Source: a virus
Length of the DNA stretch: 45,216 nucleotides
IMG/VR virus record: IMGVR_UViG_3300008448_000166
Location: 1 to 45,216 of that record
Reading direction: 5' to 3' (one strand)
Of the stretch, positions 7,906 to 34,272 are shown one piece after another; position 1 is the stretch's first letter; each line of letters starts with the position of its first letter. The notes beneath the pieces were generated by a model. That model was given only the letters and a program-made list of their open reading frames with translations, was not told where the DNA came from and ran no database searches. Both the position numbers and the translations under genes were made by a program.

Positions 7906-7912
7906 TAAAAAT

Positions 7913-10222: not shown

Positions 10223-10239
10223 AATACAGTATTATACGT

Positions 10240-10247: not shown

Positions 10248-10248
10248 T

Positions 10249-10275
10249 AAAGGCGCCTATTTCTTGGGCGCCTTT
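10249..10275 (-). terminator. Rho-independent-type terminator after the frameshift extension
   Basis: A perfect 9-bp stem (AAAGGCGCC with GGCGCCTTT) closes a 9-base loop. The stop codon of the frameshift extension (10257-10259) begins in the loop and runs into the stem. The downstream tail is TTTAATATTTAT, only moderately T-rich. Confidence 0.7.
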
Positions 10276-11265: not shown

Positions 11266-11294
11266 AAACGTATTTTATTTTTATTTGTTCGTAT

Positions 11295-11302
11295 ATAAAT
11301 AT
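11295..11302 (-). promoter_or_regulatory. ATATTTAT element before the gp26-family gene
   Basis: It lies 29 bases before the start codon and 11 bases after the tube-gene hairpin. The context GCATATATTTATATACG gives the best match to a TATATTTA box, near the TAnnTTTG -7 consensus of Bacteroidota promoters. Confidence 0.45.
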
Positions 11303-11313
11303 ATGCAAAAGGA

Positions 11314-11340
11314 AAGCGTTTGCCAAAAAGACAAACGCTT
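11314..11340 (-). terminator. Terminator hairpin after the tail tube gene
   Basis: A perfect 9-bp stem (AAGCGTTTG with CAAACGCTT) has a 9-base loop rich in T on the coding strand, followed by TTCCTTTTG. It lies 25 bases after the tube stop codon, as expected for a highly expressed gene. Confidence 0.65.
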
Positions 11341-11364
11341 CGAAGAAAGAAATATGAAGGGTGA

Positions 11365-11853
11365 TTAGAAGTTCAATACGCAATAATCCATAGCAAGTGT
11401 CACATTAAGTGTAATTGCTGAATCGCCAGTTGCCCAATCGTATTCACCAAAAGTGGCTGTTTTGCAATAAGCACCTTTGATAATCCATTCACCAACGATA
11501 TCACCTACAGGGCCTAAGATATTCAATGTGAGGTCTTTCTTATAAAAATCAGAATAACCATCACGTCCTGTTACTGATTCGTGAGCCAAACGAGCCCATT
11601 CCATTACTGATTGAGCACCACTTGGTGTGATTGGGTCATATAATTCTAAAGTCATGTCATTCCAACGAACTTTACCTTTTACTTTGCGGTAAACGTTGAT
11701 ATGCTCTAATATGATTTCACCAGCTTCAAATCCAGGAGCAGAAGCTTTCTTAATTAAATATGCTGGGATACCGTCAATGTACATTATAAAGCGATTAGGA
11801 ACTTTAGGTTCATACGCTGTAAACATTATTTCATTTGGATTCAATACGGCCAT
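11365..11853 (-). CDS. 19: Tail tube protein (gp19-like, 162 aa)
   Basis: The size (162 aa; T4 gp19 has 163), position directly after the sheath gene and sequence are typical of the gp19/contractile tube family. Diagnostic stretches are PNRFIMYIDGIPAYLIKKAS near the N-terminus, VRWNDMTLELYDPI at about 60-75, and WIIKGAYCKTATFGEYDW near the C-terminus. Stacked hexamers form the inner tube through which DNA passes. A hairpin terminator follows the stop codon, and an ATATTTAT element stands 27 bases before the start, suggesting that the gene can be transcribed on its own. High expression is expected. Confidence 0.92.
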   Translation of the reverse strand: MAVLNPNEIMFTAYEPKVPNRFIMYIDGIPAYLIKKASAPGFEAGEIILEHINVYRKVKGKVRWNDMTLELYDPITPSGAQSVMEWARLAHESVTGRDGYSDFYKKDLTLNILGPVGDIVGEWIIKGAYCKTATFGEYDWATGDSAITLNVTLAMDYCVLNF

Positions 11854-11880
11854 TTTATGTTGTATTTTGTTTTGTTATCA

Positions 11881-11888
11881 ATAAATAT
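11881..11888 (-). promoter_or_regulatory. ATATTTAT element before the tail tube gene
   Basis: It occupies the 51-base gap between the sheath stop and the tube start, 27 bases from the ATG. There is no hairpin in this gap, so read-through from the sheath gene is also possible. Confidence 0.4.
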
Positions 11889-11904
11889 TAGGAACTACAT
11901 CCCC

Positions 11905-14052: not shown

Positions 14053-14096
14053 TTTTTATGATTTTGTTTTAATTTATTACGGGGTTTTACCTAATA

Positions 14097-14104
14097 ATAA
14101 ATAT
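14097..14104 (-). promoter_or_regulatory. ATATTTAT element before the tail sheath gene
   Basis: It is placed 44 bases before the sheath ATG, leaving room for an untranslated leader that is A/T-rich and free of Shine-Dalgarno sequence. Confidence 0.45.
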
Positions 14105-14138
14105 CTACAAAACCATACAAAACGCAGAAGTAATATAA

Positions 14139-14414
14139 TTAAATTGGGGTTACTTCGCCAGTTTCAATATTAATGTTACCGGTTCCGTATTTTTCTTGTA
14201 ATGTAGAGAGGAGTTCTTTTTCGCGCTCTGTGAGTTTCTTAATGTCATTTAAAACATTAGATTTTTCTGTTTCCATAAACGCTTTATGGTTAGCCATTTC
14301 AGCTAATTGTGCTTCAAGGCTACCTAATTCAAACACATGTTTGTTATACTGTGATTGCATTTCTTTGATCTTTGCAATTTCTTCTTCTGTAAGTTTTTTT
14401 ACTTCTTCTGACAT
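14139..14414 (-). CDS. Small coiled-coil protein upstream of the sheath gene (91 aa)
   Basis: I do not recognise a named family. Residues 1-75 form a predicted coiled coil (charged heptads: KKLTEEEIAKIKEMQ, then FELGSLEAQLAEM and IKKLTEREKELL), giving a prefoldin-like hairpin. The tail is short and beta-like (YGTGNINIETGEVTPI). It is the first of a set of small genes between the fibre block and the sheath. The shape suggests a chaperone-like or fibre-trimerising helper, but that is inference. A weak 7-bp inverted repeat overlaps its 3' end. Confidence 0.6.
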   Translation of the reverse strand: MSEEVKKLTEEEIAKIKEMQSQYNKHVFELGSLEAQLAEMANHKAFMETEKSNVLNDIKKLTEREKELLSTLQEKYGTGNINIETGEVTPI

Positions 14415-14428
14415 ATTTTAAAATTATT

Positions 14429-14662
14429 TTATTGTTTCCAGCGCTGATCTGGACAGGCTTCTGGGCCTGGTAGTGGTGAAAATATTTTTTTACTTAATGG
14501 ACATCCACATAATCCACAGGTATACATATCTATGTGCTTATGATATTCTTTATGTGGGCAAGTATCACAAACAGATGCTCTATATTCTGCTATAGCTTTT
14601 TGCTCAGGAGTAGGGTTAGCTGCAGCAATCCAAGCTTTAGCTATTTCTACTATTTTAAGCAT
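14429..14662 (-). CDS. Small zinc-ribbon-like cysteine-rich protein (77 aa)
   Basis: Six cysteines are arranged as C32xxC35, C49xxC52xC54 and C70, with a context (CDTCPHKEY, TCGLCGCPLSKK, ACPDQRW) that strongly suggests a zinc-binding knuckle. The N-terminal 30 residues form one helix. Short proteins with CPLxxK and CPxxRW ends are common in phages of this kind, but their function is unknown to me. The start overlaps the end of the neighbouring membrane protein gene by eight bases, so the two are probably translationally coupled. Confidence 0.65.
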   Translation of the reverse strand: MLKIVEIAKAWIAAANPTPEQKAIAEYRASVCDTCPHKEYHKHIDMYTCGLCGCPLSKKIFSPLPGPEACPDQRWKQ

Positions 14663-14915
14663 TTACTTTAGCTGGTTTTTTCTTTGGTTGTGGTTTCTTT
14701 TTCTTTTTAGCAGTCATTGTTGGTGCTGAAGGAGGAGTAGTTGGTACTACTTCTACAGTAGGCACTGTTTCTACATAGGATTCTTCAGGAACATTAGATG
14801 CTTCAATTTCCTCTACAGGTGAATGAACGGGGGTAGCTGATGGTTTGTCAATTTTCTTCTTTAAAGTTAAGAATACTGTAGCTACAATTACTAAAGTGAT
14901 AATTACGAATAACAT
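14655..14915 (-). CDS. Single-pass membrane protein with basic C-terminus (86 aa)
   Basis: The first 20 residues (MLFVIITLVIVATVFLTLKK) form one transmembrane segment followed by positive charges, so the C-terminal part is predicted to lie in the cytoplasm. The rest is Pro/Thr/Glu/Val-rich and ends in a strongly basic run (AKKKKKPQPKKK). It has the shape of a small spanin or holin accessory, or of a membrane tether, but it matches no family I can name. An ATATTTAT element is found 21 bases before the start, making this the first gene of a short unit with the cysteine-rich and coiled-coil proteins. Confidence 0.6.
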   Translation of the reverse strand: MLFVIITLVIVATVFLTLKKKIDKPSATPVHSPVEEIEASNVPEESYVETVPTVEVVPTTPPSAPTMTAKKKKKPQPKKKPAKVNA

Positions 14916-14936
14916 ATTTTATTATATTTGTTTGAT

Positions 14937-14944
14937 ATAAATAT
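14937..14944 (-). promoter_or_regulatory. ATATTTAT element before the 86-aa membrane protein gene
   Basis: It is found 21 bases before the start, in a 58-base gap following the 70-residue protein gene. The context GTATATATTTATATC is almost the same as at 11295. Confidence 0.4.
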
Positions 14945-14973
14945 ATACAAAAAGAGGAAGACAACCAAATTTT

Positions 14974-15186
14974 TTAGCTATTTTGTTGTAACCAATCTCT
15001 ATATTCTTGTTCTGTATCAAACACAAGCATTTGATTATTTTTTATTACTCTGTTTTTAGTTATATAATCTGTAATAGGAACATCGTTAATATCAACAGGG
15101 ATCAGGTAGGATGTTGTTGATATTGATCCTATATTATTGGTAGTGACTGTAGTTTCTTCTACTGTGATTAAGTTGTATGTATTCAT
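14974..15186 (-). CDS. Hypothetical small protein (70 aa)
   Basis: I do not recognise this protein. The first 50 residues are Thr/Ile/Val-rich and beta-like (ITVEETTVTTNNIGSISTTS). The C-terminus is a short amphipathic helix (EQEYRDWLQQNS). It closely follows the trio of paralogous about-300-residue proteins, 13 bases after the last, so it may be a chaperone or attachment subunit for them. Evidence is limited to position and an intact reading frame in phase with its neighbours' spacing. Confidence 0.5.
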   Translation of the reverse strand: MNTYNLITVEETTVTTNNIGSISTTSYLIPVDINDVPITDYITKNRVIKNNQMLVFDTEQEYRDWLQQNS

Positions 15187-15198
15187 ATTTTATATTTT

Positions 15199-16125
15199 TT
15201 ATGTTCCTTGCCAATTAAACCAAAACAATTGTTGACTAAAAGCTCCCCAATAGTGAACTGGGTTTAAGCTAGGTCTAACACCGGCATATGTTCCAAAGCT
15301 TCCGAAGGTTGAATCTGATATGTCTGTAGTAATGTAAGTAGATGCTATCCAACCAAAAGTTCTTAGTTGAGCTACAGTTGTAGCACTATTACCGTACACT
15401 AGTAGTATTTGGTCTCCTATCTTAATACCGCTTGTTGATATTGTTGTCCTTTTAACACCTGTTGAGGTCGTAAATCCAGCAGCATTATTAACATCTGTAA
15501 ATCCAACTCTTCTAAAAGGAATAGCATGATCACTGTTGAATCTTTGTCCAACGTATATTGCCATCTCGGCCCACGTTACTGATGATGCTGCTGTAGTTAC
15601 ATTGTATATTACGTCTATTGATGTATATTCTTTATCTGCTTTACCAAGAGTTGTCATATAAACAGCATTACTTAATAACGAAGCTGCTGTACCTGCACCT
15701 CCCGGTCTCCAACCTAATGTGCCTTTCATTGTGTTTGCAAGTACTTGGTAGTTGTATGTTTCTTTATTACCTAAAGAATCTAATACTTCCCATCCTTTTT
15801 CAAGTTGGTACTGTAAAGTATCTCCCACTCCTAGGGTAGCTCTAAATACAACTCTTGTATTTGTTCCATCAAATACCTGTACTATTACAGTTTCAGATGA
15901 TGAGTCAGCGTTGAATATAGAGCAGTATCTTAACTCATTTTGTTGTCCACTACTTGGAGATGGTACTAAATCAACTGCTGTTGTATCATTTGATGTACCG
16001 TTATTTGATACTAGAGTAACACCAGTAGCTGTATAATTGTTATAATCAACAGTAAAAGGTAGCTCTGTAGCTGCTGTACTACCTAATTTGAATTGTATTT
16101 TATCTGATGTTCCTGTTATTATCAT
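15199..16125 (-). CDS. Putative tail appendage protein, copy 3 of a tandem paralogue trio (308 aa)
   Basis: This gene is one of three adjacent paralogues. Shared landmarks are an N-terminal strand TSDKIQFKLG, a block of Ser/Thr/Asp residues leading to VDLVPSPSSGQQNELRYC (residues about 50-70), a central VTWAEMAIYVG, then IGDQILLVYGNSATT and a terminal RPSLNP. The pattern is a beta-sandwich appendage with a conserved base and variable loops. The C-terminus (HYWGAFSQQLFWFNWQGT) is aromatic-rich and distinct from copies 1 and 2, suggesting a specific contact surface. Placement in the fibre block supports a role in adsorption or surface decoration; this is inference. Confidence 0.6.
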   Translation of the reverse strand: MIITGTSDKIQFKLGSTAATELPFTVDYNNYTATGVTLVSNNGTSNDTTAVDLVPSPSSGQQNELRYCSIFNADSSSETVIVQVFDGTNTRVVFRATLGVGDTLQYQLEKGWEVLDSLGNKETYNYQVLANTMKGTLGWRPGGAGTAASLLSNAVYMTTLGKADKEYTSIDVIYNVTTAASSVTWAEMAIYVGQRFNSDHAIPFRRVGFTDVNNAAGFTTSTGVKRTTISTSGIKIGDQILLVYGNSATTVAQLRTFGWIASTYITTDISDSTFGSFGTYAGVRPSLNPVHYWGAFSQQLFWFNWQGT

Positions 16126-16135
16126 TTTTTATCAT

Positions 16136-17035
16136 TTAGTCTCCCATCCATGTTATTCTTGGTGGTGTAACAGTTGTACTTATAGTTGTTGATGATAGTG
16201 ATGAACTTAGACTGGGTCTGCTGCTACCTGCTGTTAAAAAGAATCCAGCACTTATATTATCAGGAACGCTATTTGATCTAAACGATACAGAAGTAACTGC
16301 TGAGTTTCCTAATACTAGCCATAAATCATCTCCTGCGTTTATACCTGTTACTGGAATATAGTTAGCTATAGGAGCAACACTATTTCTAGCCCATGGAGCA
16401 CTTGTATCAACAAACCCACATCTCGTAAGTGTTGTAGCTGATCCTAATGATGGCGTTCCTTTATATATAGCAGCTTCGGCCCAGGTAACTGTTACGGCTA
16501 CGGCTGATATGTAAAAAGCTATGACTATATTTTTATGAGCTCCTGTTGCTTTACCTATATAATAACAATATGTTGTTGTTTGTAGTTGTAAAGAAGTAGC
16601 GGCTTGTGATAATGAGAATTCTGGTATTATTGGATTGCTTACAATTGGGCTGTTTGTATTAAATGTTTTTGTTGATCCATTAACATCAAATGCTTTCCAT
16701 CCGGTTTTATGTGTATACTGTAAGTATTCGTTAACTTGCAGTGTTGTACTGATAACATCTTTAGTTGTTCCATTATAATTTGTCCTTACAGTAACTGTTG
16801 ACTGAGCGCTGTCCGCATTAAATATATTACAGTATTTTAATTGGTGTTGATTTCCACTACTTGGAGCAGGTACTATATTTACAGCACTTGTATTACTTGA
16901 CGTTGTACAATTTTTTACAGGTGTAATGGAAGTAGATGATATCCTGTTATAGGAAGCATTTATATGCAACTGATTAGTTGCTGCATTTGCTCCTAAAACT
17001 AAATCAATACTATCTAGTGAACTTGTTACTATCAT
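16136..17035 (-). CDS. Putative tail appendage protein, copy 2 of the trio (299 aa)
   Basis: This is the middle paralogue. It shares VNIVPAPSSGNQHQLKYC, VTWAEAAIYKG and GINAGDDLWLVLGNSAVTS with its neighbours and ends in RPSLSSSLSSTTIS plus a short WMGD tail. Copies 1 and 2 are closer to each other near DDLWLV/DDLWAV than either is to copy 3. No signal peptide or membrane segment is present. The gene follows copy 1 with a 13-base gap. Confidence 0.6.
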   Translation of the reverse strand: MIVTSSLDSIDLVLGANAATNQLHINASYNRISSTSITPVKNCTTSSNTSAVNIVPAPSSGNQHQLKYCNIFNADSAQSTVTVRTNYNGTTKDVISTTLQVNEYLQYTHKTGWKAFDVNGSTKTFNTNSPIVSNPIIPEFSLSQAATSLQLQTTTYCYYIGKATGAHKNIVIAFYISAVAVTVTWAEAAIYKGTPSLGSATTLTRCGFVDTSAPWARNSVAPIANYIPVTGINAGDDLWLVLGNSAVTSVSFRSNSVPDNISAGFFLTAGSSRPSLSSSLSSTTISTTVTPPRITWMGD

Positions 17036-17048
17036 TTTCCTTTATTGT

Positions 17049-17957
17049 TTATGTTCCTTGATATACACCTTGCCAAGCTATCCATATTGGTGCATTAGTA
17101 CTATCAACACTTCCTGTAAAGCTAGTTACCGTACTCGGTCTAGTTGATCCTGACGTTTGATAGAAGCCGGCTGCTAAGTTATCAACTACGCCTGCTCTAT
17201 AGACAGTAGCTGTCGATCCTGAACTAGCAAATACTGCCCATAGATCATCTCCTATAGCTATACTGCTTGTTATAGGTACTGTTGTTGTTTTTACATCGGC
17301 CGTGCTTGTAAAGCTACTAGAGGCATCGGCATACCCTAATCTAGTAAATATACTTCCCGTTCGTAACGTTGGCACACCACTATATATTGCAATTTCTCCC
17401 CATGCCCCTCCACCAGCCAAAGCTGTTGTTGTTCTATATTGTACCTTAACAGACGAATATGGTCTTTCAGCTCTACCTAAATAGATGCAATAAGCTGTAT
17501 TGTTAACTGATGTAAATGTTGTTGCTGCTCCTGCTGCTCCAAACCACTCAGGCATCCTAATCGAGCTAGGCATCCTATTATATCCAGTTATTTTTTCTTC
17601 GCCATTAGCTGTGTAAATTCTCCAACCCATCTCTTCAGAGTATTGAATTGATTCACTTACTCTTAAATAAACGTATAATAAGTTTCTATATGATCCATTA
17701 TCATTAAATCTAACTTTTGTACCTACATCTTGACTACCAACATTGTTTATAGCGCAATATTTTAGTTGGTGTTGTTGATTAACTGATGGAGGTGGTACTA
17801 GGTTTACTGATGAAGTGTCGTTTGTTGTACCATAGCTGGCTGTTGGTGTTACAGTTGTGCTGGTGTAAGCAGTGTAGTAGGTAGTGTAGTTTAGTTGAGT
17901 TGTTACTACTTTATCTAATACTATTTCTAAGCTATCTGTTGTTGCGTCTAATATCAT
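17049..17957 (-). CDS. Putative tail appendage protein, copy 1 of the trio (302 aa)
   Basis: This is the first-transcribed paralogue. It carries the same ordered blocks as copies 2 and 3: VNLVPPPSVNQQHQLKYC near residue 52, GAWGEIAIYSGVP in the centre, and IAIGDDLWAVFASSGSTAT. It ends IWIAWQGVYQGT; the WQG-T ending recurs in copy 3, while copy 2 ends WMGD. The 5' third is the most conserved part between copies, the C-terminal half the most variable, as expected for a mount-plus-binding-head design. It lies 10 bases downstream of the YadA-head-like fibre gene. Confidence 0.6.
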   Translation of the reverse strand: MILDATTDSLEIVLDKVVTTQLNYTTYYTAYTSTTVTPTASYGTTNDTSSVNLVPPPSVNQQHQLKYCAINNVGSQDVGTKVRFNDNGSYRNLLYVYLRVSESIQYSEEMGWRIYTANGEEKITGYNRMPSSIRMPEWFGAAGAATTFTSVNNTAYCIYLGRAERPYSSVKVQYRTTTALAGGGAWGEIAIYSGVPTLRTGSIFTRLGYADASSSFTSTADVKTTTVPITSSIAIGDDLWAVFASSGSTATVYRAGVVDNLAAGFYQTSGSTRPSTVTSFTGSVDSTNAPIWIAWQGVYQGT

Positions 17958-17967
17958 AACTTTTACT

Positions 17968-19491
17968 TTATATTCCTATTGCTATTAATCTTTGAACTTG
18001 TTGATATGTTAATCCACCTTCCACATAAGACGCTGTTAGAGCATATGAAGCACTTGTTACTGTACCAACTACGTTTGATGCGGTGACATATGATGCTGTT
18101 GGAACTGTTGTTATTGTTATGCTACCACTCGCATCTGCATACTCGTTATTTACTGATGTAACTATTGTTCTAGAGCTGCCATCCGTGTTTGGTATGACCA
18201 CATAGCTATCAACGCCTGATGGTTTTGTTGACATGCCTGGGTCTATGTTGGCACTTTTTATATTTGCGACATCTGTAAATGATATAAGGGATCTATCTAG
18301 AAGCAGCTCATCGTCGCTAGCTCCAGATGTATTTTTTATTATAAATTGTCTTACGTCATTGTTTGGATTTTCTAGTACCAATCCTCGATCCATAACATCT
18401 TCAAAATATAACCTCGCACCTGTTGGACCTTGTACATCGATTGATCCTGTCACTATTACATTTCCTACAAACTGCGATGTTGAAGCAGATACATAGACTC
18501 TATCTACCTCCGGTAGTATTTCAAAAATGTTATCTCTTAGGAAAAAATTAGTTCCTTTGCCTACTATGAAGGAGTTGTCGTATTCTGCGCTGTTTGGATT
18601 AACTATTCGACTATACTTACCAATACTAGTTTGTCTTGGCCGGTAAGCTATTGTACCAACACCTCCAGCGTGAGAAGCTTCGCCTAATGTAATTGAAGCA
18701 GCTCCTTCAGCGTGTGAGTTTGTACCTAAGGCAAATGTTGAAGAGCCTTCTGAGTGAGCTCCATCACCGTAGATAATGTAATCAGCTCCTGGAGGGGCTG
18801 GAAGATCAAGTATACCTATGACAGCTTGTGGTGTAGTTACATTAGTATCAGTTAGATTTATTATAGTATTTGTGCCATCGAATGTTATAGAACTTGTCTC
18901 AAATAATTGAATATTGTAATTATTGTTATATTTTCTATCGTCTAGTATTACATAAGGAAATGTAAAACTACTAGTGACATTTCCGTATACAGCATCTAAG
19001 GTTATAACGCCAGTTGATATACTTGAATTATACCCAAGTTGACCAGTAGCTATCGAGTTTCCTTCCGCGTGTGATCCTATTCCATAAGCTATTGTGCTAA
19101 TTCCTTCAGCGTGCGAGTAGCTACCCGATGTTATTGTATTAGATCCTTGTTGTAGACTTTGTAGTGATGGATTGAAGGTAAATGCTGAGTCACCAGCTAG
19201 TGTATTTGAACTGTTGTATTGTATTTGTGTGTTTGATCCGCCAGGTAAAGTAGGAGCGTATGAGGCACTGATAGCTCTTGAAGAGCTTACTGCTTGAGAA
19301 GCACTTACTGCCCAACTTGAAGTTATATTATATGTTCCTACTGGTAAGAAGGATGCTGTTGTAGCGTTGTTAGCCCAACTAGCAGTTCCAAATAATGACC
19401 CGGTTATACCTTGTGTAACTGTTAGCGAACCGCTAACCGTAGAATTATTTTGTGATATTAAGCCATTCTTGGCTACAAATTCATTTGCCAT
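17968..19491 (-). CDS. Tail fibre with YadA-head-like SHAEG repeats (507 aa)
   Basis: The N-terminus contains the TGSLFGTASWA module used by several fibres in this window, followed by a SASQAVSSSRAISASYA hexapeptide-type stretch. Four or more SHAEG/HSEG repeats (for example SYSHAEG, GSHAEGNS, GAHSEGSS, SHAEGAAS) resemble the left-handed parallel beta-roll of YadA/Hia head domains, which are trimeric adhesins. After the roll comes a beta-rich region with FLRDNIFEILPEV, then a C-terminal stalk (TASYALTASYVEGGLTYQQVQRLIAIGI). It probably forms a trimeric side or tail fibre that binds the host surface. An ATATTTAT element and a 7-bp AT-rich hairpin precede the start. Confidence 0.7.
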   Translation of the reverse strand: MANEFVAKNGLISQNNSTVSGSLTVTQGITGSLFGTASWANNATTASFLPVGTYNITSSWAVSASQAVSSSRAISASYAPTLPGGSNTQIQYNSSNTLAGDSAFTFNPSLQSLQQGSNTITSGSYSHAEGISTIAYGIGSHAEGNSIATGQLGYNSSISTGVITLDAVYGNVTSSFTFPYVILDDRKYNNNYNIQLFETSSITFDGTNTIINLTDTNVTTPQAVIGILDLPAPPGADYIIYGDGAHSEGSSTFALGTNSHAEGAASITLGEASHAGGVGTIAYRPRQTSIGKYSRIVNPNSAEYDNSFIVGKGTNFFLRDNIFEILPEVDRVYVSASTSQFVGNVIVTGSIDVQGPTGARLYFEDVMDRGLVLENPNNDVRQFIIKNTSGASDDELLLDRSLISFTDVANIKSANIDPGMSTKPSGVDSYVVIPNTDGSSRTIVTSVNNEYADASGSITITTVPTASYVTASNVVGTVTSASYALTASYVEGGLTYQQVQRLIAIGI

Positions 19492-23100: not shown

Positions 23101-23980
23101 CATGATTTATTGATCCACCTAGTATTGCTGATGCTGTTTGAGAGTTTACTGCGTTTGATGCTGATTGAGCCCAAGAGGATGTTCCAAATAGTGATCCTGT
23201 TATGCCTTGAGATACATTTAAGGAGCCTGTTACTCTTTGGCTACCAGATACTATAACTGTACCTATTAATGTTTGAGTATCGTTTGTGGCATCACCTAAT
23301 TGATTTGATCCAGTTGAGTATATTACTGATGCTGATTCTATAGTTACATTTAAAAATGATATTGAAGCAGTACCATTTATTGTAATGTTACCATTAAGTG
23401 TTAAGTCTTGATTTAGTGTATTGAGGTAGGATGCTGTTTGAGCATTAGAACTACTTAAGGTATATGATGCACTTGTTGCTTGAGAAGCACTTACTGCGAC
23501 TGATGAGCTTAATGCATAGCTGCTAGATAAAGCATATGAGCTACTTAATGCATATGATGCACTAGCAGCATAAGATGAACTAATAGCTTGGGATGCACTA
23601 TACGCCCATGAAGCAGTGCCATTAAATGCTCCAGTAAACGAACCTGTAAACGAACCAGTATTATATGATCCACTAAATGTTATGAAGCTACCTGATAATA
23701 GAGCAATTGAACTACTTAATGATTGTGTAGCTTGGTTTATACTTGCTGTGTAAGCATTAAATGAAGATGTTGATACAAAAGCACTTGTATCTACACTAGC
23801 GCCAGCTGCTCCTTGTGCCCCTTGTGGTCCAGGACTATTAATCTGTAATATGTTAGTTACAGGTTGAGGTATAGTAATGCTATTGCATTTTATTTGGTCT
23901 GTAATAACAAGTTTATTGTCAGATCCTACCTCAACAATGTTGTGGTTAAAATTTAATATTTGTACGTTTTTACAAGACAT
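20147..23980 (-). CDS. Very long tail fibre with C1q/TNF-like tip (1277 aa)
   Basis: Domain order: a unique N-terminal mount (residues 1-50); a short collagen-like GPQGAQGAAGAS; Ser/Ala/Tyr hexapeptide stalk (about 110-165); many copies of a GNQTITGS-type beta-repeat; a conserved module near 860-980 with LDGAQGGRIKVALAKGDGDA, GFVTTYGLVRGI and a short KVDNGYEIDELHNV, known to me from Bacteroidota-phage fibres; a second set of beta-repeats; and a C-terminal jelly roll (about 1145-1277) resembling C1q/TNF-like tips (ITFENSGLYNIQYSALAQ and SIIVTVTQIA). It is probably a trimeric long tail fibre. Its stop is one base from the next start. Confidence 0.75.
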   Translation of the reverse strand: MSCKNVQILNFNHNIVEVGSDNKLVITDQIKCNSITIPQPVTNILQINSPGPQGAQGAAGASVDTSAFVSTSSFNAYTASINQATQSLSSSIALLSGSFITFSGSYNTGSFTGSFTGAFNGTASWAYSASQAISSSYAASASYALSSSYALSSSYALSSSVAVSASQATSASYTLSSSNAQTASYLNTLNQDLTLNGNITINGTASISFLNVTIESASVIYSTGSNQLGDATNDTQTLIGTVIVSGSQRVTGSLNVSQGITGSLFGTSSWAQSASNAVNSQTASAILGGSINHVPYFITNNTLATSSIYQSGSTSVIINADVNTTANPEALFVEQTHPTSFNVISGKGNLNNYLQLNIQNRNAGTSVSSDVVATANNGDENGNYVDMGINGSNYSGIVGGPNDAYLYATGSHLHIGNATPNMPIQFFVGGFDTDADRKFELNANNQHNMTGSLEIDTDLTVLGGITGSLFGTASWARNAITASYIAGANVNGTVTSASYALNASNADNATYASTAGNGGVTQLIAGSGVTLVPSTGVGAVTVAATGVGGVTIISGSNVTQSFNNATTWTFNHNLQTRVPIISVFDTNYNQIIPQNIELTSTSSATITFPTAESGFAVASLGGSTGYVVSASYASLAEYANTASFYPESDPVYIAQKPTLATTGSNVFRGNQTITGSLNISGSITLVGNQTITGSLTVSGSNTFTKIGPSVFSGSVIFVNGATGSLFGTASYADNADLLDGKDSTIFATTGSNTFIGNQTITGSVFVTGSSTLIGNQTITGSILMSGSSFISGVDYIDFDTTASNVGAVGRLKWNDTDGTLDLGLKGGNVTLQIGQEEVVRVVNKTGVNLTEAGYQAVRLDGAQGGRIKVALAKGDGDANSLDTIGLVTENILNNEEGFVTTYGLVRGINTAGTLQGETWNDGDALYLSPTTFGALTNIPPLAPSHSVRMGYVVQANSGNGTIFVKVDNGYEIDELHNVLITNVAYGDLLMRDGNNVWINTKNLSGFYTITGSLTISGSSTFTNIGTTSLTGSVNITGSTTQTGDNTLIGTTTLSGSILVSGSQTFRGTHILSGSFDVSGSSNFHNSEFIVTGSTSIKGITQISGSTGITGSLNVVGDINVVSGSSFTRWGNKLFNYAQFANTASISVTQNVSASIQFPLTYFNDGVSIVSSSRITFENSGLYNIQYSALAQQGNTTPSLRIWFKKTGSNVDNSSTIIQLQNNSQTAVTSQFAQSISASEYIELWYHSNGANTAFPYTAVGSGFPAAPSIIVTVTQIA

Positions 23981-24405
23981 TAGCGTGTTACTTCTTTACT
24001 TAAGTTAACAGTACCTTGTAGTAAACGTGTTACTACACTACCAGATGTTATTTCTAAATCGTAATATGCTGTTTCGAATGTTAATGCTGATGATGAAGCA
24101 GCAGATATTACAATACCAATTGTACCTGATGTTGGTGGTAATGCTCCGGCTGAGCCGCTAAAGTTAATACCTGTGCCATCAGCGTTTAGTGAGCTACTAA
24201 GTGTAAGGTATGTAGTAGAAGCGGCATCAGCATAATTGTCTTTGATTTGTAGTTTACCGCTGTATCCTGTTAAATCTATAGCGGTATTATTTGAATCTTT
24301 GTAGGCTAAATCGAGTTTTAATGTTGCTCCTTGTTCTATGAGCATTGCGTATTTTCCTGCAGGCATATGTCTGTGTATTTGGGTATAAATATTGAATTTT
24401 CCCAA
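23980..24405 (-). CDS. Small phage structural beta-protein (141 aa)
   Basis: The pattern QGATLKLDLAYKDSNNTAID, then LTGYSGKLQIKDN, and the end LEITSGSVVTRLLQGTVNL with KEVTR is a family I recall from many phages as a small structural protein, often next to fibre genes. It is beta-rich and has no signal peptide. It probably forms an Ig-like connector or a base for fibres. The stop codon overlaps the start of the 1277-residue fibre gene by one base, implying stoichiometric coupling. Confidence 0.65.
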   Translation of the reverse strand: MGKFNIYTQIHRHMPAGKYAMLIEQGATLKLDLAYKDSNNTAIDLTGYSGKLQIKDNYADAASTTYLTLSSSLNADGTGINFSGSAGALPPTSGTIGIVISAASSSALTFETAYYDLEITSGSVVTRLLQGTVNLSKEVTR

Positions 24406-24414: not shown

Positions 24415-25008
24415 TTAATCTTTTATGCAGCGGACTGAAAGGCCATATTTTTTACCTATAGTACCTGGTGATAATGATGAATTTGATGAATATAATGTAT
24501 AACCTTTTCCGCTAGATGCATTAATCTCATTTGAAGACCACCACTCTCCTAAACTATTAAGGAAAGCAAATACTCCTGATATATCCGTACGATAGCCACC
24601 AGGTAATGCAGTAAAGTTAGTACTATTTGTAGCACCTGTGTTTGGGCTATTCCAAAGAGAGGTTCCAATTTGTTTTAATGCTCCACCTGCTACAGCGCTT
24701 CCCCCCAAAGTATTAGTTAATACAATCCATTCAGCATCACTTGGAATATGCCATCCTTCAGGCGCCAATCCTCTGGAATCATTTACAGCATACCAGTTGT
24801 ATAATTTACCATATATCTTACCTAATTCAGGATCGTTATTATACCAACACCAGGCTCCTGTGGTTAAGTTTGCCCATGTTGTATTATCCTTTACATAGGG
24901 AATCACATCGCCATTTCTATATGTTGATACATCTAAATTACGGCGTTGCCAGTTTTGGGTGCCGATTGTGACGTATGGTTCAGGTCCTCCTTCTACTGTA
25001 CTATTCAT
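24415..25008 (-). CDS. FISUMP-domain protein, array copy C (197 aa)
   Basis: The whole protein is one FISUMP domain (Fibrobacter succinogenes major paralogous domain). Typical blocks are IGTQNWQRRNLDVSTYRNGD, GAWCWYNNDPELGKIYGKL, YNWYAVNDSRGLAPEGWH, PGGYRTD and a closing SVRCIKD. FISUMP proteins have a C-type-lectin-related fold and, in bacteria, are surface proteins. In the phage they are probable fibre-tip or capsid-surface ligand binders. The first about 85 residues are nearly identical to copies A and B; the centre and C-terminal half differ. Cys49 and the late Cys in VRCIK are conserved among copies. Confidence 0.8.
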   Translation of the reverse strand: MNSTVEGGPEPYVTIGTQNWQRRNLDVSTYRNGDVIPYVKDNTTWANLTTGAWCWYNNDPELGKIYGKLYNWYAVNDSRGLAPEGWHIPSDAEWIVLTNTLGGSAVAGGALKQIGTSLWNSPNTGATNSTNFTALPGGYRTDISGVFAFLNSLGEWWSSNEINASSGKGYTLYSSNSSLSPGTIGKKYGLSVRCIKD

Positions 25009-25012
25009 ATTG

Positions 25013-25591
25013 TTAATCTTTTATGCAGCGAATTGAACATCCGAATTTTTTAGAATTAGAAAGAGTATAAACCCAGGTATCAGACCACTGCACCCATGAA
25101 TATTGAGCTTGTGTTGTATCAGTTTCATCAGTACTCCACCAAAAAGCTTCTTTTGTAACTTGGTAAAAAAGACCATTATTTCTACGGTATCCAGTAGGAA
25201 GACCATTAAAATTACTTGAGTTTGTGTTATATACGTTACTAATCCAACCGCTTGTACTTTTTATAGCCCCACCAGCTGTTGCATTTCCTCCTAAAAATGT
25301 TATCAAGGTATTCCAATTAGATATACTTGGTATACTCCATCCTTCAGGCGCCAGCCCTCTAGAATCATTTACAGCATACCAATTGTATAATTTACCATAT
25401 ATTTTGCCTAGTTCAGGATCATTGTTGTACCAACACCAAGCCCCTGTAGTTAGGTTAGCCCATGCTGTATTATTTGCTACATAAGGAATTATATCACCAT
25501 TCCTATATGTTGATACATCTAGGTTACGGCGTTGCCAGTTCTGGGTGCCGATTGTGACGTATGGTTCTATGGTACCTGTTTTACCTGACAT
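25013..25591 (-). CDS. FISUMP-domain protein, array copy B (192 aa)
   Basis: This is a second tandem FISUMP domain, four bases upstream of copy C. It shares the N-terminal half almost exactly with copy C (DVSTYRNGDIIPYV and WANLTTGAWCWYNNDPELGK), then diverges from residue about 90, with a different aromatic set in the distal loops (EAFWWSTDETDTTQAQYSW and SWVQWSDTWVYT). The ending is SIRCIKD. The abundance of exposed Trp, Tyr and Ser in the divergent half suits carbohydrate or protein binding. Confidence 0.8.
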   Translation of the reverse strand: MSGKTGTIEPYVTIGTQNWQRRNLDVSTYRNGDIIPYVANNTAWANLTTGAWCWYNNDPELGKIYGKLYNWYAVNDSRGLAPEGWSIPSISNWNTLITFLGGNATAGGAIKSTSGWISNVYNTNSSNFNGLPTGYRRNNGLFYQVTKEAFWWSTDETDTTQAQYSWVQWSDTWVYTLSNSKKFGCSIRCIKD

Positions 25592-25594
25592 TGT

Positions 25595-26179
25595 TTAATC
25601 TTTTATGCAGCGGACTGAAAGACCACTAGTTTTACCGTCGGGTGCTCTTATGATAAAGGTTGTATTGTGAAGTATGGCGATTACATATGCTTCAATTGTA
25701 CTTGTTTCGGTTGTAGTCCACCAGTTTCCATTAGTATTAATACTTAAAAGGGAAAAAGGGCCGCTATCTTGTCGAAACCCACCTGGCAAAGCAGTAAATC
25801 TTGTGCTATTTGTAGCACCAGTATTTGGGCTATTCCATAATGTTGTTCCTGTTTGTTTTAATGCTCCTCCGTTATTTCCTACAAAAGTAGTTAAGGTAGT
25901 CCACTCCGCATTAGTTGGCACATGCCATCCTACTGGGGCTAAACCTCTTGGGTCTGTTGCTGCATACCAATTATAAAGTTTTCCGTATATTTTGCCTAGT
26001 TCAGGGTCATTGTTAAACCAACACCACGCTCCTGTTGTTAGGTTTGCCCAAGTAATTTCATCTGCTACATAAGGTATAGGGTCACCATTCCTATATGTTG
26101 ATACATCGAGATTGCGGCGTTGCCATTTTTGGGTGCCGATTTGAATGTATGAATCTTGTGGTCCAAAACGAAATGCCAT
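25595..26179 (-). CDS. FISUMP-domain protein, array copy A (194 aa)
   Basis: This is the first-transcribed FISUMP copy. Its short N-terminus (MAFRFGPQDSYIQIGTQKWQ) is slightly different from copies B and C. The shared block DVSTYRNGDPIPYV and GAWCWFNNDPELGKIYGKL is retained, with RGLAPVGWHVPTNAEW and a PGGFRQD turn. Its variable half (FSLLSINTNGNWWTTTETST) is unlike the other two. The stop is immediately followed, with a gap of three bases, by copy B, and the start is one base from the 454-residue fibre stop. The three genes are translated as a tight unit. Confidence 0.8.
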   Translation of the reverse strand: MAFRFGPQDSYIQIGTQKWQRRNLDVSTYRNGDPIPYVADEITWANLTTGAWCWFNNDPELGKIYGKLYNWYAATDPRGLAPVGWHVPTNAEWTTLTTFVGNNGGALKQTGTTLWNSPNTGATNSTRFTALPGGFRQDSGPFSLLSINTNGNWWTTTETSTIEAYVIAILHNTTFIIRAPDGKTSGLSVRCIKD

Positions 26180-26180
26180 A

Positions 26181-27545
26181 TTATATTGCTCTTATTATTG
26201 TTCTAACTATCCAACTATCTCCTGATGTTGTAGATCCAGTCAATGCCATGTTACTACCTGTTACTATAACACCTAACCTAAACTCAGTTGTTGTACCAAA
26301 GGAGGATGCGGTTGTTTCGGTAAAATTAACACTACTACCACTCCACATTGCTGTTATACTACCAACTCTACCAACCGATCCTGATTTAACACTGTAGTCA
26401 TAAAATGCACCCCAGTATGATGCTGTTGGTAATTGATATATTATTTGACCTGTACCAGTATTAATAGCAGTTTCAACTGTTGTGTATGTTGCTGGTCTAA
26501 TGGGATTACCCATTAATATGGTATCATCAGAAAATACTTCTAATATAGATAAACCATCAACATCATTTACAGCAAATAAGGAACCTGATAAGCTATCTGT
26601 TACAGTAAATAAATCACCTTGTGATCCTGAAACTGCTAATATTGGGGTGGCTGATCCTGATCCTATTATATGGAGTTTACTTGTTGGAGATGTTATTCCT
26701 ATACCAACATTACCACTACTGCTTACAGATAAAAATGTGCTGCTACCACTAACAAGTTGGAATGAGGTACTACCTACATTTACGCTAGCCGTAACAGAGC
26801 CTGTTACTATTCTTGATAATGCTATTGAGCTAGTTTGACTATTAGTTACAAATGACGATGTTTGGCTGTTTGTAACAAACGATGATGTTTGGCTGTTTGT
26901 AACAAACGACGATGTTTGGCTGTTTGTAACAAACGACGATGTTTGACTATTAGTTACAAAGGATGAGGTTTGGTTGTTTGTAACAAACGATGATGTCTGT
27001 GAATTAGTTACAAATGACGATGTTTGGTTGTTTGTAACAAAGGATGATGTTTGACTATTAGTTACAAAGGATGATGTTTGGTTGTTTGTAACAAATGACG
27101 ATGTCTGTGAATTAGTTACAAAGCTACTAGTTTGGCTGTTAGTTACAAAGGAGGATGTTTGATTGTTTGTAACAAATGAACTAGTTTGGTTGTTTCGAAC
27201 AAATTGACTTGTATCAACCCCAATAGCAGATGATGCAGTATAGTATAGTTGACCATTAGAATCTGATAATAATACTCTAGTAGCTGTGTTTGATTCAGTT
27301 ACTCCTTTAAATGTTACTGAACCTGTTGTATTAAGTGATCCTGATATAATAACTGCTTTATCTGTTGTTATATCTAATAATGTTTGACTACCTGTTGATA
27401 CAGAAAATAGTGTGCTATTTGAAGCATCAGATATATTTAATACACTACCTTGACTACCAGATATTGATAATAAAGTAGTGCCAGCGGTAGCACCGCTTAT
27501 AATTAAATTTTCAAATGAACCGGTATTTGTATAAAATGTTGCCAT
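26181..27545 (-). CDS. Tail fibre with 13 tandem 9-residue TSSFVTN repeats (454 aa)
   Basis: Residues 1-120 hold beta-repeats (SISGSQGSVLNISD, then VLLSDSNGQLYYTASSAIG). They are followed by 13 consecutive copies of TSSFVTN(N/S)Q at about residues 118-235, then IVTGSVTASVNVGSTSFQL, a further GSQG-type repeat (VSGSQGDLFTVTD) and a C-terminal tip (WGAFYDYSVKSGSVGRVGSI and a short terminal WIVRTIIRAI). The repeat should make a regular elongated shaft. It precedes the FISUMP trio by one base, so those proteins may be mounted on this fibre. An ATATTTAT element lies only six bases before the start. Confidence 0.7.
   Translation of the reverse strand: MATFYTNTGSFENLIISGATAGTTLLSISGSQGSVLNISDASNSTLFSVSTGSQTLLDITTDKAVIISGSLNTTGSVTFKGVTESNTATRVLLSDSNGQLYYTASSAIGVDTSQFVRNNQTSSFVTNNQTSSFVTNSQTSSFVTNSQTSSFVTNNQTSSFVTNSQTSSFVTNNQTSSFVTNSQTSSFVTNNQTSSFVTNSQTSSFVTNSQTSSFVTNSQTSSFVTNSQTSSFVTNSQTSSIALSRIVTGSVTASVNVGSTSFQLVSGSSTFLSVSSSGNVGIGITSPTSKLHIIGSGSATPILAVSGSQGDLFTVTDSLSGSLFAVNDVDGLSILEVFSDDTILMGNPIRPATYTTVETAINTGTGQIIYQLPTASYWGAFYDYSVKSGSVGRVGSITAMWSGSSVNFTETTASSFGTTTEFRLGVIVTGSNMALTGSTTSGDSWIVRTIIRAI
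26836..27195 (-). repeat. 27-bp tandem repeats encoding TSSFVTN(N/S)Q, 13 copies
   Basis: Within the 454-residue fibre gene, units of 27 bp repeat in frame with synonymous differences (for example gat/gac, gtt/gta, ctg/ttg). Some neighbouring units are nearly identical at DNA level, others diverge, pointing to repeated duplication and contraction. Confidence 0.85.
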
Positions 27546-27551
27546 ACATTA

Positions 27552-27559
27552 ATAAATAT
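27552..27559 (-). promoter_or_regulatory. ATATTTAT element before the 454-aa fibre gene
   Basis: Only six bases separate it from the start codon, too close for a standard promoter with leader; if it is one, the transcript would be nearly leaderless. Confidence 0.35.
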
Positions 27560-27576
27560 TGTATTAAATAAATCTA

Positions 27577-27595
27577 AAATAGGTATAATCTATTT
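27577..27595 (-). terminator. Weak AT-rich hairpin after the divergent FISUMP gene
   Basis: A 6-bp stem (AAATAG with CTATTT) has a 7-base loop and lies eight bases after the stop codon. It is AT-rich and followed by TAGATTTATTT, so termination is only possible. Confidence 0.3.
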
Positions 27596-27602
27596 AAAAA
27601 TC

Positions 27603-28259
27603 CTATGCGTCTGTTACTAATCTGATTGATGTTCCAAAGGTTTGGTCCATAGTTGAGTATAGTATATTTCCGTCTTCATATCTTAATCTAAATGCATTAC
27701 TATCACCTAATCTATAATAAACATAATCATCTTGGCTATAAAAAGAACCAAGATTGTCAATAAACCCATTAGCGTTTGCTGAGAAATTACTAAGATTAGT
27801 ATTACTATTAGGTGTTGACCAATTACCTGGGGTGAGTTTCAGAGCATCTCCTGCTGTTGTACTTATTGTACCGTTGAGAGATGGTGTTACTGAGTTTGGG
27901 TCGTAATAGGTAGCTAATGTAACTACATCACTCAATGTTGGTAGCCTCCATCCTGGTGGTAGTACACCTCTTGCATCAGTGAAGACATACCAATTGTAAT
28001 AGAGGTATGGATTTGTTGAAACGAATTGGTAGTAGCAGTATGCTCCATCTCCGCCGTTCGTGTAAGTATCCCAAATTCCATCATCTTCGCCATATGATAT
28101 TGGATCTCCATTGTTATAATGTGTCGGTTGAAAATCTTCTGCCATCCATACTTGATTGCCTATACGAGTTGTAAGAAAAGGATATAAGACACTTGTGTTT
28201 TGTACTCTAGCTCCTCTACTCATAAACACTCTAGCTCCTCTATTTATATTAATTGCCAT
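27603..28259 (-). CDS. Divergent FISUMP-domain protein (218 aa)
   Basis: This is a fourth, more distant FISUMP protein. It retains TRIGNQVWMAEDFQPTHYNNGD, then AYCYYQFVSTNPYLYYNWYV, RGVLPPGWRLPTLSDV and the ending FGTSIRLVTDA, but it lacks the Cys in the final SVRC motif. The N-terminal 25 residues (MAININRGARVFMSRGARVQNT) contain a duplicated RGARV and form a short basic extension. The gene stands apart from the trio, between two fibre genes. A weak AT-rich hairpin follows the stop codon. It probably acts as another tip or adhesin. Confidence 0.75.
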   Translation of the reverse strand: MAININRGARVFMSRGARVQNTSVLYPFLTTRIGNQVWMAEDFQPTHYNNGDPISYGEDDGIWDTYTNGGDGAYCYYQFVSTNPYLYYNWYVFTDARGVLPPGWRLPTLSDVVTLATYYDPNSVTPSLNGTISTTAGDALKLTPGNWSTPNSNTNLSNFSANANGFIDNLGSFYSQDDYVYYRLGDSNAFRLRYEDGNILYSTMDQTFGTSIRLVTDA

Positions 28260-28262: not shown

Positions 28263-30011
28263 TTAACTATTATTAAATGGTGTAGCAATCCAATAAACTG
28301 GTCCTGTTAATGTAGTATCTGAATTTGAATTGATTTGGAAACCAGCAGATGTTTTTGATTGTATTGTCCATGCTCTTGCATCTTCACCTGTTACTGTTAC
28401 TGCATAGTTATTGTTTGCAAATGCAGATCCAAATGTAACTGAGGATGTTAGTGGTGATGTACCAAATGAAGCTATTGATGCTGAACCTGCTTTTGTCGTT
28501 GATGGGCCTGAGCCACCTCCACCTATTGCTGATGATGCTGTTGTGAATATTTGTCCGCTGCTGCTTATTAATAATACTTTATTAGCAGTAGATGAATCAG
28601 TTAGGTCTGAAAAGTATACTGTACCTGATACGTGGAGTGAACCTGTTGGGGTTGTTGTGCCTATACCAACTCTACCACCACTAACTGGGAGATGAGGGAG
28701 TAATATAACATTTCCGTTATCTCCATTATATATTTGTAGCTTAGATAAATTATTGTTGCCACCATCTGTTTTATAGACAGTAAAATTTATAGCAGGTGTT
28801 GTTGTACTTACACCATACAGTGTACTTTTTAAGGTAAGAGCAGCATAAGTTGAATTTAACCCACTTGATAATACATCTGCTGTTATATTATTTGCTCCTG
28901 CTATGAAGCTTTTATTTCCGGAGTTGTTTATATATGTAAAATCTCCATTACTAAAATTTATATATGTATTATAACTACCTTCAAGAAAATAGTTTATTCT
29001 ACTACCAGATGGATCTAAAGTGATACTTTTATATCCTGATCCTGATCCTGATGTAACAGCAAATTTTCCAGCATTACTAAGTGTTGCTAATGTATTGCTT
29101 CCACTATTAATTTGAAATGATGTATTTCCTATATCTACACTAGCAGTAACGCTACCTGTTACTATTTGGTTTAATGATAAACCAGCAACACTACTAGCAG
29201 GTACATATGATGCTGTTAAAGCAATACTTGATGATTCAGCCCAACTTGATGTTCCAAATAATGAACCTGTATATGATGAAGCAGATACATTGCCTGCTAT
29301 TTGTAGTGTGTTAACTGGGTTGGTTGTGCCTATACCAATTTTAGTATCTCCAATTAATTGGTATATTACGCTATCAGCTAAAGAAGTACCAGTACCAAAC
29401 ACTGGTATGTAACCTTGAGTACCGCCTGCAACTCCTAATGCTGTTGTTGCGAATGATGCTGATTGAGCCCAACTAGAAGTGCCATAAAGATAATTTCCAT
29501 CGCTTATTGTTATACTACCAGATACGGTACCACCAGTTGCTTTAACTAAATATCTAGCATCACCTGCTGTTTGATCTAGTTTAGGAATAAAATACCATTG
29601 TTTGTTAGGTGTACTCCAAATCCATGTTTCACCGTTTGATGATGTGAATTGAGTTCTAGCTTCACCTGCTACAATCCATACTAAGCCATCTGCTAAAGAT
29701 GCTGTAACATCTCCTGATGATGATGCTTCTAGGCTAGGTGTATTTGCTAAAGAGGCAGAAATGCCTACTATTGTTTGTGATAGAGATAATGTTAAATTAT
29801 CTGGTATTTCTACCCAACTAGCATCTAGATTTGGTGCAGTAGCATTGGTTAATTTATATAATTTGTTAGTGTCTTGTTCATAAACCAGTAAACCTTCATA
29901 TACATTAATTACATCTAATGCCTTACGAGCAGTAGCATTTGTTACTGAAAATCTAGCATCAACAGGATCTGTTGATTGTATTATAAGTCCACTAGGTATT
30001 GCTAAAGCCAT
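28263..30011 (-). CDS. Tail fibre protein with conserved phage-fibre N-terminus (582 aa)
   Basis: The N-terminal 75 residues (ARKALDVINVYEGLLVYEQD, then LYKLTNATAPNLDASWVEIP) form the beta-rich attachment domain seen in many phage fibres. Residues about 75-160 are Ser/Ala-rich. Then come TGSLFGTSSWA and SLNQIVTGSVTASVDIGNT modules shared with other fibres, an IGTTTPTGSLHVSGTVYFS segment typical of T4-like and cyanophage fibres, a VLLISSSGQIFTTASSAIG-Gly linker, and a C-terminal tip ending GPVYWIATPFNNS. It follows the 993-residue fibre gene by 11 bases. It is probably a trimeric side or tail fibre. Confidence 0.75.
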   Translation of the reverse strand: MALAIPSGLIIQSTDPVDARFSVTNATARKALDVINVYEGLLVYEQDTNKLYKLTNATAPNLDASWVEIPDNLTLSLSQTIVGISASLANTPSLEASSSGDVTASLADGLVWIVAGEARTQFTSSNGETWIWSTPNKQWYFIPKLDQTAGDARYLVKATGGTVSGSITISDGNYLYGTSSWAQSASFATTALGVAGGTQGYIPVFGTGTSLADSVIYQLIGDTKIGIGTTNPVNTLQIAGNVSASSYTGSLFGTSSWAESSSIALTASYVPASSVAGLSLNQIVTGSVTASVDIGNTSFQINSGSNTLATLSNAGKFAVTSGSGSGYKSITLDPSGSRINYFLEGSYNTYINFSNGDFTYINNSGNKSFIAGANNITADVLSSGLNSTYAALTLKSTLYGVSTTTPAINFTVYKTDGGNNNLSKLQIYNGDNGNVILLPHLPVSGGRVGIGTTTPTGSLHVSGTVYFSDLTDSSTANKVLLISSSGQIFTTASSAIGGGGSGPSTTKAGSASIASFGTSPLTSSVTFGSAFANNNYAVTVTGEDARAWTIQSKTSAGFQINSNSDTTLTGPVYWIATPFNNS

Positions 30012-33011: not shown

Positions 33012-33019
33012 ATAAATAT
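33012..33019 (-). promoter_or_regulatory. ATATTTAT element before the 993-aa fibre gene
   Basis: It overlaps the last base of the gp15-like stop codon and ends seven bases before the fibre ATG, marking the start of the whole fibre block. Confidence 0.35.
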
Positions 33020-34272
33020 TAAGATGCAAATTTTCCTACTGCTACTACTTCATCAGTATTTTTAAGTGAAAAACCTAAATTTGTTGTATCTACAGTTAAC
33101 GTTGATGTATTGTTTCCATTATCTACAAAATTAGTTATAGCATTTAGTTCTATTAACTGACCATTTACAAAAAATATAAAATTATATTTATTGTTTGATG
33201 GTAATGGGTTAGGGGCTGTAAGCCATCCTTTAGGGAAAATAGCTGTATTTGATGATATAGATGTTGCTAATACTTCTAGATTTGTAGCTAGATATATTCC
33301 GGCTTGTGTAGATAATCCACTATAGTTAAAGTTATTTGTTCTATTTACATTGTATGAATCGGCTACGCCTACTGCTGCTCCCATAGCTGTTTTTGGTTTT
33401 TGAAGGTTAGTTATTGATTGTACGTCAGATGTTGTTTCCATTGTAAATACTATCTGTGACTTAGTATAGAATTTACTACGAGCTGTTGCTAATGTTTTAT
33501 TAACAGAATCAGGTATTATATATCCTTGTACTTTAATATTAAATTCTGATTTAGCTGCTCTATCTTCATCACTTGCTAATATTGTTGTATTAGTAAATGA
33601 ATCAATTAGTGCTTTAAATTTCCACCTTGCTGGGTTGCCCCAATATGAGTCGGAAGCATATTCTATTGCTTCTACAATTTTATTGTTTTGTTCAATATAA
33701 TTGGTAAATACAATGCATTTGTATGTTACTGTAATATAATCTGGTGGGACTGTTACATAGTATTGTTCAGATGGTATTCTATTATTGATTATATCAAATT
33801 GATCATAGGCATTTCTGATATTGTATTTTGATCCTACTACTTGATATAAATGAGCTGTATTGCCATCTAATTTATTACCTTTAGTTCTGTCTTTATCAAA
33901 GCTTTCACGCTTAAACATTATAAGGGGTAATTGAATAGCTCCTACTCCATCACGATAAAAACCATCTGATTGAACTGTTTTCCAACGTTCAGGTGAGCCG
34001 TATATTACAGGTACTGCTATTTGTTGTCCATTTTGTACTACATTTGGTTTAATAATATTATTAAAGTAATACATTATAGCTTCATCAATATCTTCTAAAC
34101 CAATACTAATATCTTTTACAGTATCATTCCTCATAGAATAATCTGTACCTCGGTTATGATCAAATACAGTTTGGCTAACGGGTTTACCCTCGTTAGCCAA
34201 GTACGGAGGATTGATTGCTTGTTGTGTTACCTCCGATTGATTCCTTGGTATTGGTTTTAATCTATTAGGCAT
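33019..34272 (-). CDS. Tail sheath stabiliser/tail completion protein (gp15-like, 417 aa)
   Basis: A central core with IAVPVIYGSPERW (about 87-99) and VPPDYITVTYKCIVFTNYIE with NKIVEAI following matches the pattern I associate with T4 gp15-type tail terminators (PVxYASxxxx, then LSIFTRY, QIVEQI in T4). A late FNIKVQGYIIPD strand corresponds to the T4 VNGWMYPP segment. The protein closes the tail at its head-proximal end and binds the neck. It is longer than T4 gp15 (272 aa), with an additional C-terminal domain (AIFPKGWLTAPNPLP onwards). It follows the neck genes in T4 order; terminase does not follow. The call is from motif memory plus order. Confidence 0.65.
   Translation of the reverse strand: MPNRLKPIPRNQSEVTQQAINPPYLANEGKPVSQTVFDHNRGTDYSMRNDTVKDISIGLEDIDEAIMYYFNNIIKPNVVQNGQQIAVPVIYGSPERWKTVQSDGFYRDGVGAIQLPLIMFKRESFDKDRTKGNKLDGNTAHLYQVVGSKYNIRNAYDQFDIINNRIPSEQYYVTVPPDYITVTYKCIVFTNYIEQNNKIVEAIEYASDSYWGNPARWKFKALIDSFTNTTILASDEDRAAKSEFNIKVQGYIIPDSVNKTLATARSKFYTKSQIVFTMETTSDVQSITNLQKPKTAMGAAVGVADSYNVNRTNNFNYSGLSTQAGIYLATNLEVLATSISSNTAIFPKGWLTAPNPLPSNNKYNFIFFVNGQLIELNAITNFVDNGNNTSTLTVDTTNLGFSLKNTDEVVAVGKFAS

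Follow-up and report, generated by a model that had tools for sequence, protein, structure and literature searches.

Why would a phage encode four FISUMP-domain proteins within its tail-fibre genes, and are the copies exchangeable receptor binders, as an original prediction from the sequence proposed? The window – the whole stretch of DNA analysed, a 45,216-base virus record (IMG/VR IMGVR_UViG_3300008448_000166) – carries all of its genes on the minus strand, including those for a major head protein, a head maturation protease, a head-tail adaptor, PhoH, a tail sheath, a baseplate hub, and an endolysin-like protein. It belongs to a large lake phage, a myophage of the T4 superfamily that probably infects a Flavobacterium-like member of the Bacteroidota, since the nearest isolates are Flavobacterium phages (immuto; 59% identity in the major capsid protein and 50% in the sheath). 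A contig under another metagenome accession (IMGVR_UViG_3300008459_000663) is identical to window positions 1908–19057 over 17,150 bases and represents the same phage. This sole same-phage contig stops short of the FISUMP array, and exact DNA scans of IMG/VR found no strain variants of the array. Two relatives encode two tandem copies of the major capsid protein (L094 4255–7617, 88% identical; L147 4559–8045, 76% identical).

The four FISUMP genes comprise a tandem triplet, C-B-A, with gaps of 3–4 nt, and a divergent gene, D, that sits 1423 nt upstream of C (Table 1). All four proteins exceed the PF09603 (FISUMP/Fib_succ_major) cut-off of 33.9 bits and cover profile positions 1–187 or 2–186, and the ORFs contain no internal stops; the location and description of the four genes in the original prediction were correct. 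The 9-residue repeats noted in the fibre upstream of C are likewise real, forming a repeat family in 27-nt register. The stop codon of this fibre gene lies 1 nt from the C start, an arrangement from which translational coupling of the two genes appears plausible. Neither this fibre nor the fibre-like protein preceding D matched a Pfam or PHROG family.

Table 1. Features of the FISUMP array, its surroundings, and comparable tandem triplets in related phages.
Feature	Location	Coordinates	Strand	Notes
Conserved structural gene, upstream bound of variable fibre block	Window	33019–34272	−	45–76% identical in relatives; 41% in Flavobacterium phage immuto
Fibre-like protein, 582 aa	Window	28263–30011	−	Directly upstream of D, gap 3 nt; called from ORF and composition
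FISUMP gene D, 218 aa	Window	27603–28259	−	Divergent; PF09603 82.7 bits, E=5.2e-23
Fibre-shaft-like protein, 454 aa	Window	26181–27545	−	9-residue repeats, QTSSFVTN[N/S]; immediately precedes C-B-A
FISUMP gene C, 194 aa	Window	25595–26179	−	First of triplet; PF09603 151.1 bits, E=5.4e-44
FISUMP gene B, 192 aa	Window	25013–25591	−	Second of triplet; PF09603 132.6 bits, E=2.6e-38
FISUMP gene A, 197 aa	Window	24415–25008	−	Third of triplet; PF09603 151.7 bits, E=3.5e-44
Codon 84 of A, inferred recombination breakpoint	Window	24757–24759	−	A B-like before, C-like after; MaxChi p=0.0004
Hypervariable tip of A, residues 141–188	Window	24445–24588	−	Family entropy; modelled strands 153–161, 166–173, 179–185
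Conserved small gene, phrog_1084, downstream bound of array	Window	23980–24405	−	Directly after the 33019–34272 orthologue in three relatives
Second tandem triplet, X1	Window	17049–17957	−	Triplet spans 15199–17957, behind fibre 17968–19491
Second tandem triplet, X2	Window	16136–17035	−	
Second tandem triplet, X3	Window	15199–16125	−	
Gly_rich_2 (PF21722) triplet	L084	18051–20744		
Gly_rich_2 (PF21722) triplet	L165	8152–10792		
Gly_rich_2 (PF21722) triplet	L257	1082–3729		
Gly_rich_2 (PF21722) triplet	L258	6371–9081		
Gly_rich_2 (PF21722) triplet	L273	1190–3928		
Gly_rich_2 (PF21722) triplet	L277	6013–8643		
Gly_rich_2 (PF21722) triplet	L304	2999–5743		
Three tandem laminin-G paralogues	immuto (L327, MW353175.1)	13719–16462		After fibre; first two annotated 'structural protein'

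We consider it likely that A–D are tail-fibre tip adhesins, with A–C descending from one capture from the host group and D having a separate origin; we infer that the proteins reside in the virion, dock non-covalently on fibre shafts, and bind receptors. Each would be a stand-alone lectin-like FISUMP domain without a secretion signal, made right after a fibre-shaft protein, and would probably dock at the shaft end, as gp38 of T2-type phages docks on gp37. The conserved half of the domain would serve as scaffold, with the variable strands and loops of residues 141–188 as the likely binding face.

Several observations bear on this reading. The fibre-block neighbourhood supports the adhesin role that had been predicted, at the level of adhesin-like proteins, and a gp38-type layout is present twice, with C and D starting 1 nt and 3 nt, respectively, after separate fibre-like genes. 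Of 90 viral FISUMP ORFs, 77 carry the domain at their C-terminus, in many cases after a long preceding region; among ORFs with the domain at their start, 12 of 17 viral ones lie directly against an upstream gene, versus 3 of 30 bacterial ones (Fisher p=3e-5). A similar tandem set follows a fibre in immuto, where two members are called structural proteins (an annotation label only). Profile searches recovered FISUMP alone in A–D, and not a glycine-rich (poly-glycine II) receptor-binding domain.

AlphaFold2 modelled A as a confident single domain (mean pLDDT 94.9). No PDB match to this model reached significance: the top entry was the Bdellovibrio Bd2740 tip (8oks, E=0.087 over 56 columns), then came a Bacteroides fimbrial protein and snake C-type lectins (next E-value 0.2; 4eps 0.69; several C-type lectins 0.8–3). 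The main basis for relating FISUMP to C-type lectins is published HHsearch and DGR work (PMC4159848).

Members of another phage group (L012 5932–8979, L051 5344–7179, L040, L074, and L020) combine an upstream protein that ends in YYLLGN[TV]K[VA] with a FISUMP protein whose leader has the form M..[FL]KK.[IV][YF].T. The pairing suggests a candidate docking element. The leaders of A–D resemble neither each other nor this KK-I-Y leader.

Bacterial relatives of these domains are surface lipoproteins, which raises the alternative that A–D act outside the virion as moron or host-modifying proteins – for example, as shed decoys or surface proteins of the infected cell. We regard this as highly improbable: A–D lack a signal peptide or lipobox, they are embedded among the fibre genes of the structural block, and FISUMP is elsewhere fused to long fibre-like proteins. 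Most free-standing bacterial FISUMPs, in contrast to A–D, begin with a signal peptide, in many cases one of the lipoprotein type. Scored by a simple pattern rather than a trained predictor, signal-peptide-like starts precede 79 of 101 bacterial FISUMP domains and 2 of 105 viral ones.

In a phylogeny of 186 domains, viral FISUMPs are almost cleanly split from bacterial ones (7 changes versus about 62 in shuffles). A, B, and C form one clade (SH-aLRT 92) on the bacterial side, beside Bacteroidota and Ignavibacteriota copies, which supports the original proposal that this adhesin came from the host group. The closest lineage to A–C comprises Bacteroidota and Ignavibacteriota surface lipoproteins with the same PF09603 domain (55–59% identity to A). 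Membership of D in the same duplication is not supported: D stands apart on a long branch, with viral sequences as its nearest neighbours, and our search of IMG/VR recovered no relatives of it.

No FISUMP was found in 46 records of related phages, many of them fragmentary. Three close relatives (L086, L088, and L164) have the counterparts of the two genes that bound the fibre block and the array side by side, with no tip genes between them; other relatives encode different fibres at this position. Because the array is absent from relatives and the bounding genes are adjacent in three of them, it is most simply read as a lineage-specific gain, an insert in a variable fibre block.

The array had been described as having nearly identical first halves and strongly different second halves. 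For protein, the first statement holds: identity over residues 13–85 is 95% for A-B, 84% for A-C, and 82% for B-C. It does not hold for DNA, as first-half silent sites differ at 0.47–0.71 among the three genes. Over residues 86–190 identity falls to 40% (A-B), 50% (A-C), and 38% (B-C), so the second halves do differ strongly overall, though not uniformly. Residues 111–140 agree with the family consensus in A and C, and the last 9 residues are conserved; variation is highest at about 141–188, and identity across tip residues 150–188 is about 18–23%. The second half of B is the odd one out.

We compared this pattern with a family background of 194 distinct FISUMP domains (four from the window, the others from IMG/VR and GTDB contigs). 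Column entropy across the family, in 10-residue blocks, is 0.6–1.8 bits for residues 21–90 and 2.1–3.1 bits for residues 141–190, and the 141 background pairs with 80–86% first-half identity share a mean of 46% in the second half. FISUMP domains in general are thus a constrained scaffold with a free tip. Gene conversion had been read from the contrast between the halves; because the contrast is common to the whole family, it is by itself no proof of gene conversion, and we rejected it as evidence.

Silent sites at the A–C gene ends are conserved (0.92 at codons 11–22 and 0.87 at codons 189–197, versus about 0.5 inside), with shared rare codons. This conservation is a hint (post hoc Fisher p=0.0015); longest-run and runs tests were not significant.

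Recombination is nevertheless detectable among A, B, and C. A breakpoint near residue 85 had been suggested as something to look for, and the best single breakpoint falls after residue 84 (MaxChi permutation p=0.0004). The first half of A is shared with B (residues 13–85: 32 informative sites unite A+B versus 8 for A+C) and its middle with C (residues 86–140: 38 for A+C versus 16 for A+B). Silent sites alone, which are few (n=33), place the break at 83 without reaching significance (p=0.15). First-half silent divergence between A and B (0.47) is lower than in every comparison with outside domains, and second-half divergence between A and C (0.54) is lower than in 97% of them, with A-B and B-C at background there. 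The breakpoint lies within residues 71–90, the best conserved stretch of the FISUMP family, where homology may favour crossover. Uniformly recent homogenisation of the first halves was rejected: silent divergence there is low only for A-B and B-C (0.58), and A-C, at 0.71, is at background (mean 0.76).

A common origin of A–C is shown for the first halves, which form an A-B-C clade (100/93). Second halves form no such clade, although a single clade there was not rejected by an AU test (p=0.46); the background-level distances of B's second half suggest, but given that test do not prove, that it was imported from outside. We propose that a single captured host-group FISUMP was probably duplicated in tandem and that the copies recombined at least once near residue 84 and diverged at their tips, with D acquired separately.

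FISUMP is a known target of diversity-generating retroelements (DGRs), including in phages (PMC4159848, PMC8143477), and A–D share the domain family and C-terminal variable site of those targets. The possibility that they are DGR-diversified lectins whose retroelement lies outside the contig or has been lost nonetheless strikes us as extremely remote. Neither the 45-kb record, which probably represents an incomplete phage genome, nor 49 other FISUMP-bearing phage records contained a reverse transcriptase, and the window contains no template repeat. Differences between the copies fall on every base and codon position and include indels, rather than following an A-only pattern; 62–72% involve A, which makes up 33–35% of bases. 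On these grounds – mixed substitutions with indels, no reverse transcriptase, and no template – we rejected DGR diversification.

How the copies relate to one another functionally is a more finely balanced matter. The original prediction saw A–D as parallel alternative binders, each with its own tip and a different receptor, that would widen or switch host range. We hold this to be a serious possibility while leaning somewhat against it. The strong tip divergence (18–23% identity), recombination within the array, and the existence of relatives without it speak in its favour; against it, the close spacing of the genes in a single block on one strand suggests that they are co-expressed, no DGR signature or sign of a switch was seen, and analogous triplets in related phages are conserved by position. 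These triplets emerged from a scan for tandem paralogues across about 160 related loci. Exactly three tandem paralogues occur in fibre blocks in five families – FISUMP, X, Gly_rich_2, laminin-G, and an unnamed family (L267) – and a fibre-like gene precedes them wherever the upstream side is visible. The X proteins of the window (299–308 aa, 32–37% identical) have no Pfam, PHROG, or isolate-phage match. Laminin-G triplets occur in immuto and L286, with a pair in L158 and a truncated set in L294; the immuto fibre preceding its set has a C-terminal region that by eye appears peptidase-S74-type and chaperone-like. The Gly_rich_2 triplets follow a fibre with the C-terminus GYSN[LI]F and a 141–144-aa protein. 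Across seven phages, the genes at each of their three positions group in a clade of their own (99/97, 100/100, and 100/99). Each position has thus kept its own identity, which speaks against interchangeable copies there. That A–C are exchangeable versions, as had been proposed, is therefore doubtful by analogy with these position-specific lineages of the same layout, the FISUMP triplet itself having no orthologues.

A, B, and C might instead be dedicated subunits of a fixed three-part tip, assembling together, for instance as a stack or, on a trimeric shaft, as a hetero-trimer. This idea is tentative and on balance unlikely. It draws on the recurrence of exactly three paralogues after fibre genes in five families, on the separate clades of Gly-rich positions 1–3, and on the nearest, though non-significant, PDB entry, Bd2740, which is the trimeric C-type-lectin tip of a Bdellovibrio fibre (PMC10769870). 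Yet L158 has only a laminin-G pair, D brings the FISUMP count here to four, other phages carry one to six FISUMPs, and the seven Gly-rich cases represent one inherited event. In T2-type phages, moreover, one gp38 tops a gp37 trimer. A natural three-FISUMP fusion in L051, which we modelled as a proxy for a pseudo-trimer, gave three domains with no confident packing (pTM 0.50) and lent no support. A broader version – that fibre tips of this phage group generally consist of three different but related subunits of any lectin fold, captured, triplicated, and fixed, with the FISUMP triplet one example taken from the host group – is speculative and rather improbable.

The preferred reading, in which A–D are fibre-tip adhesins, has counterparts in known systems. 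T2-type gp38, described in complex with the gp37 trimer (PMC12892980), is likewise a separate adhesin whose gene directly follows a fibre gene, with a constant scaffold and hypervariable receptor loops; A–D differ in having a FISUMP fold rather than a poly-glycine sandwich and three or four copies rather than one, and the Gly-rich triplets of relatives are more gp38-like. The FISUMP/DUF1566 proteins that DGRs target in Bacteroides phages (PMC8143477) and the tentaclins (PMC10743442) are related or C-lectin-type variable phage receptor binders that vary in strands and loops, as here, but the present array shows duplication, recombination, and ordinary divergence instead of a retroelement, template, and adenine-only pattern. 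Bordetella phage Mtd and the Bdellovibrio MAT fibre protein Bd2740 (PMC10769870) use the C-type lectin fold as a trimeric tip; the Bd2740 tip, unlike the stand-alone A–D, is a covalent part of its own fibre. Phage proteins with the same domain are already annotated as FISUMP in Microcystis phage Mel-JY01 and in uncultured Caudovirales phages in BFVD, though Mel-JY01 has a single FISUMP gene with no fibre annotated beside it. The array is unremarkable in its domain family and in its probable role at the fibre tip, and somewhat unusual in consisting of several stand-alone genes.

These results point to a probable path from a surface protein of the host phylum to a phage binding tip: the signal peptide is lost, and the gene is placed after a fibre gene, duplicated, and half-swapped, with no retroelement involved. 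The recurrence of triplets in unrelated tip families raises the question of fibre-tip stoichiometry, and this regularity is the unexpected part of the finding and the one most worth following.
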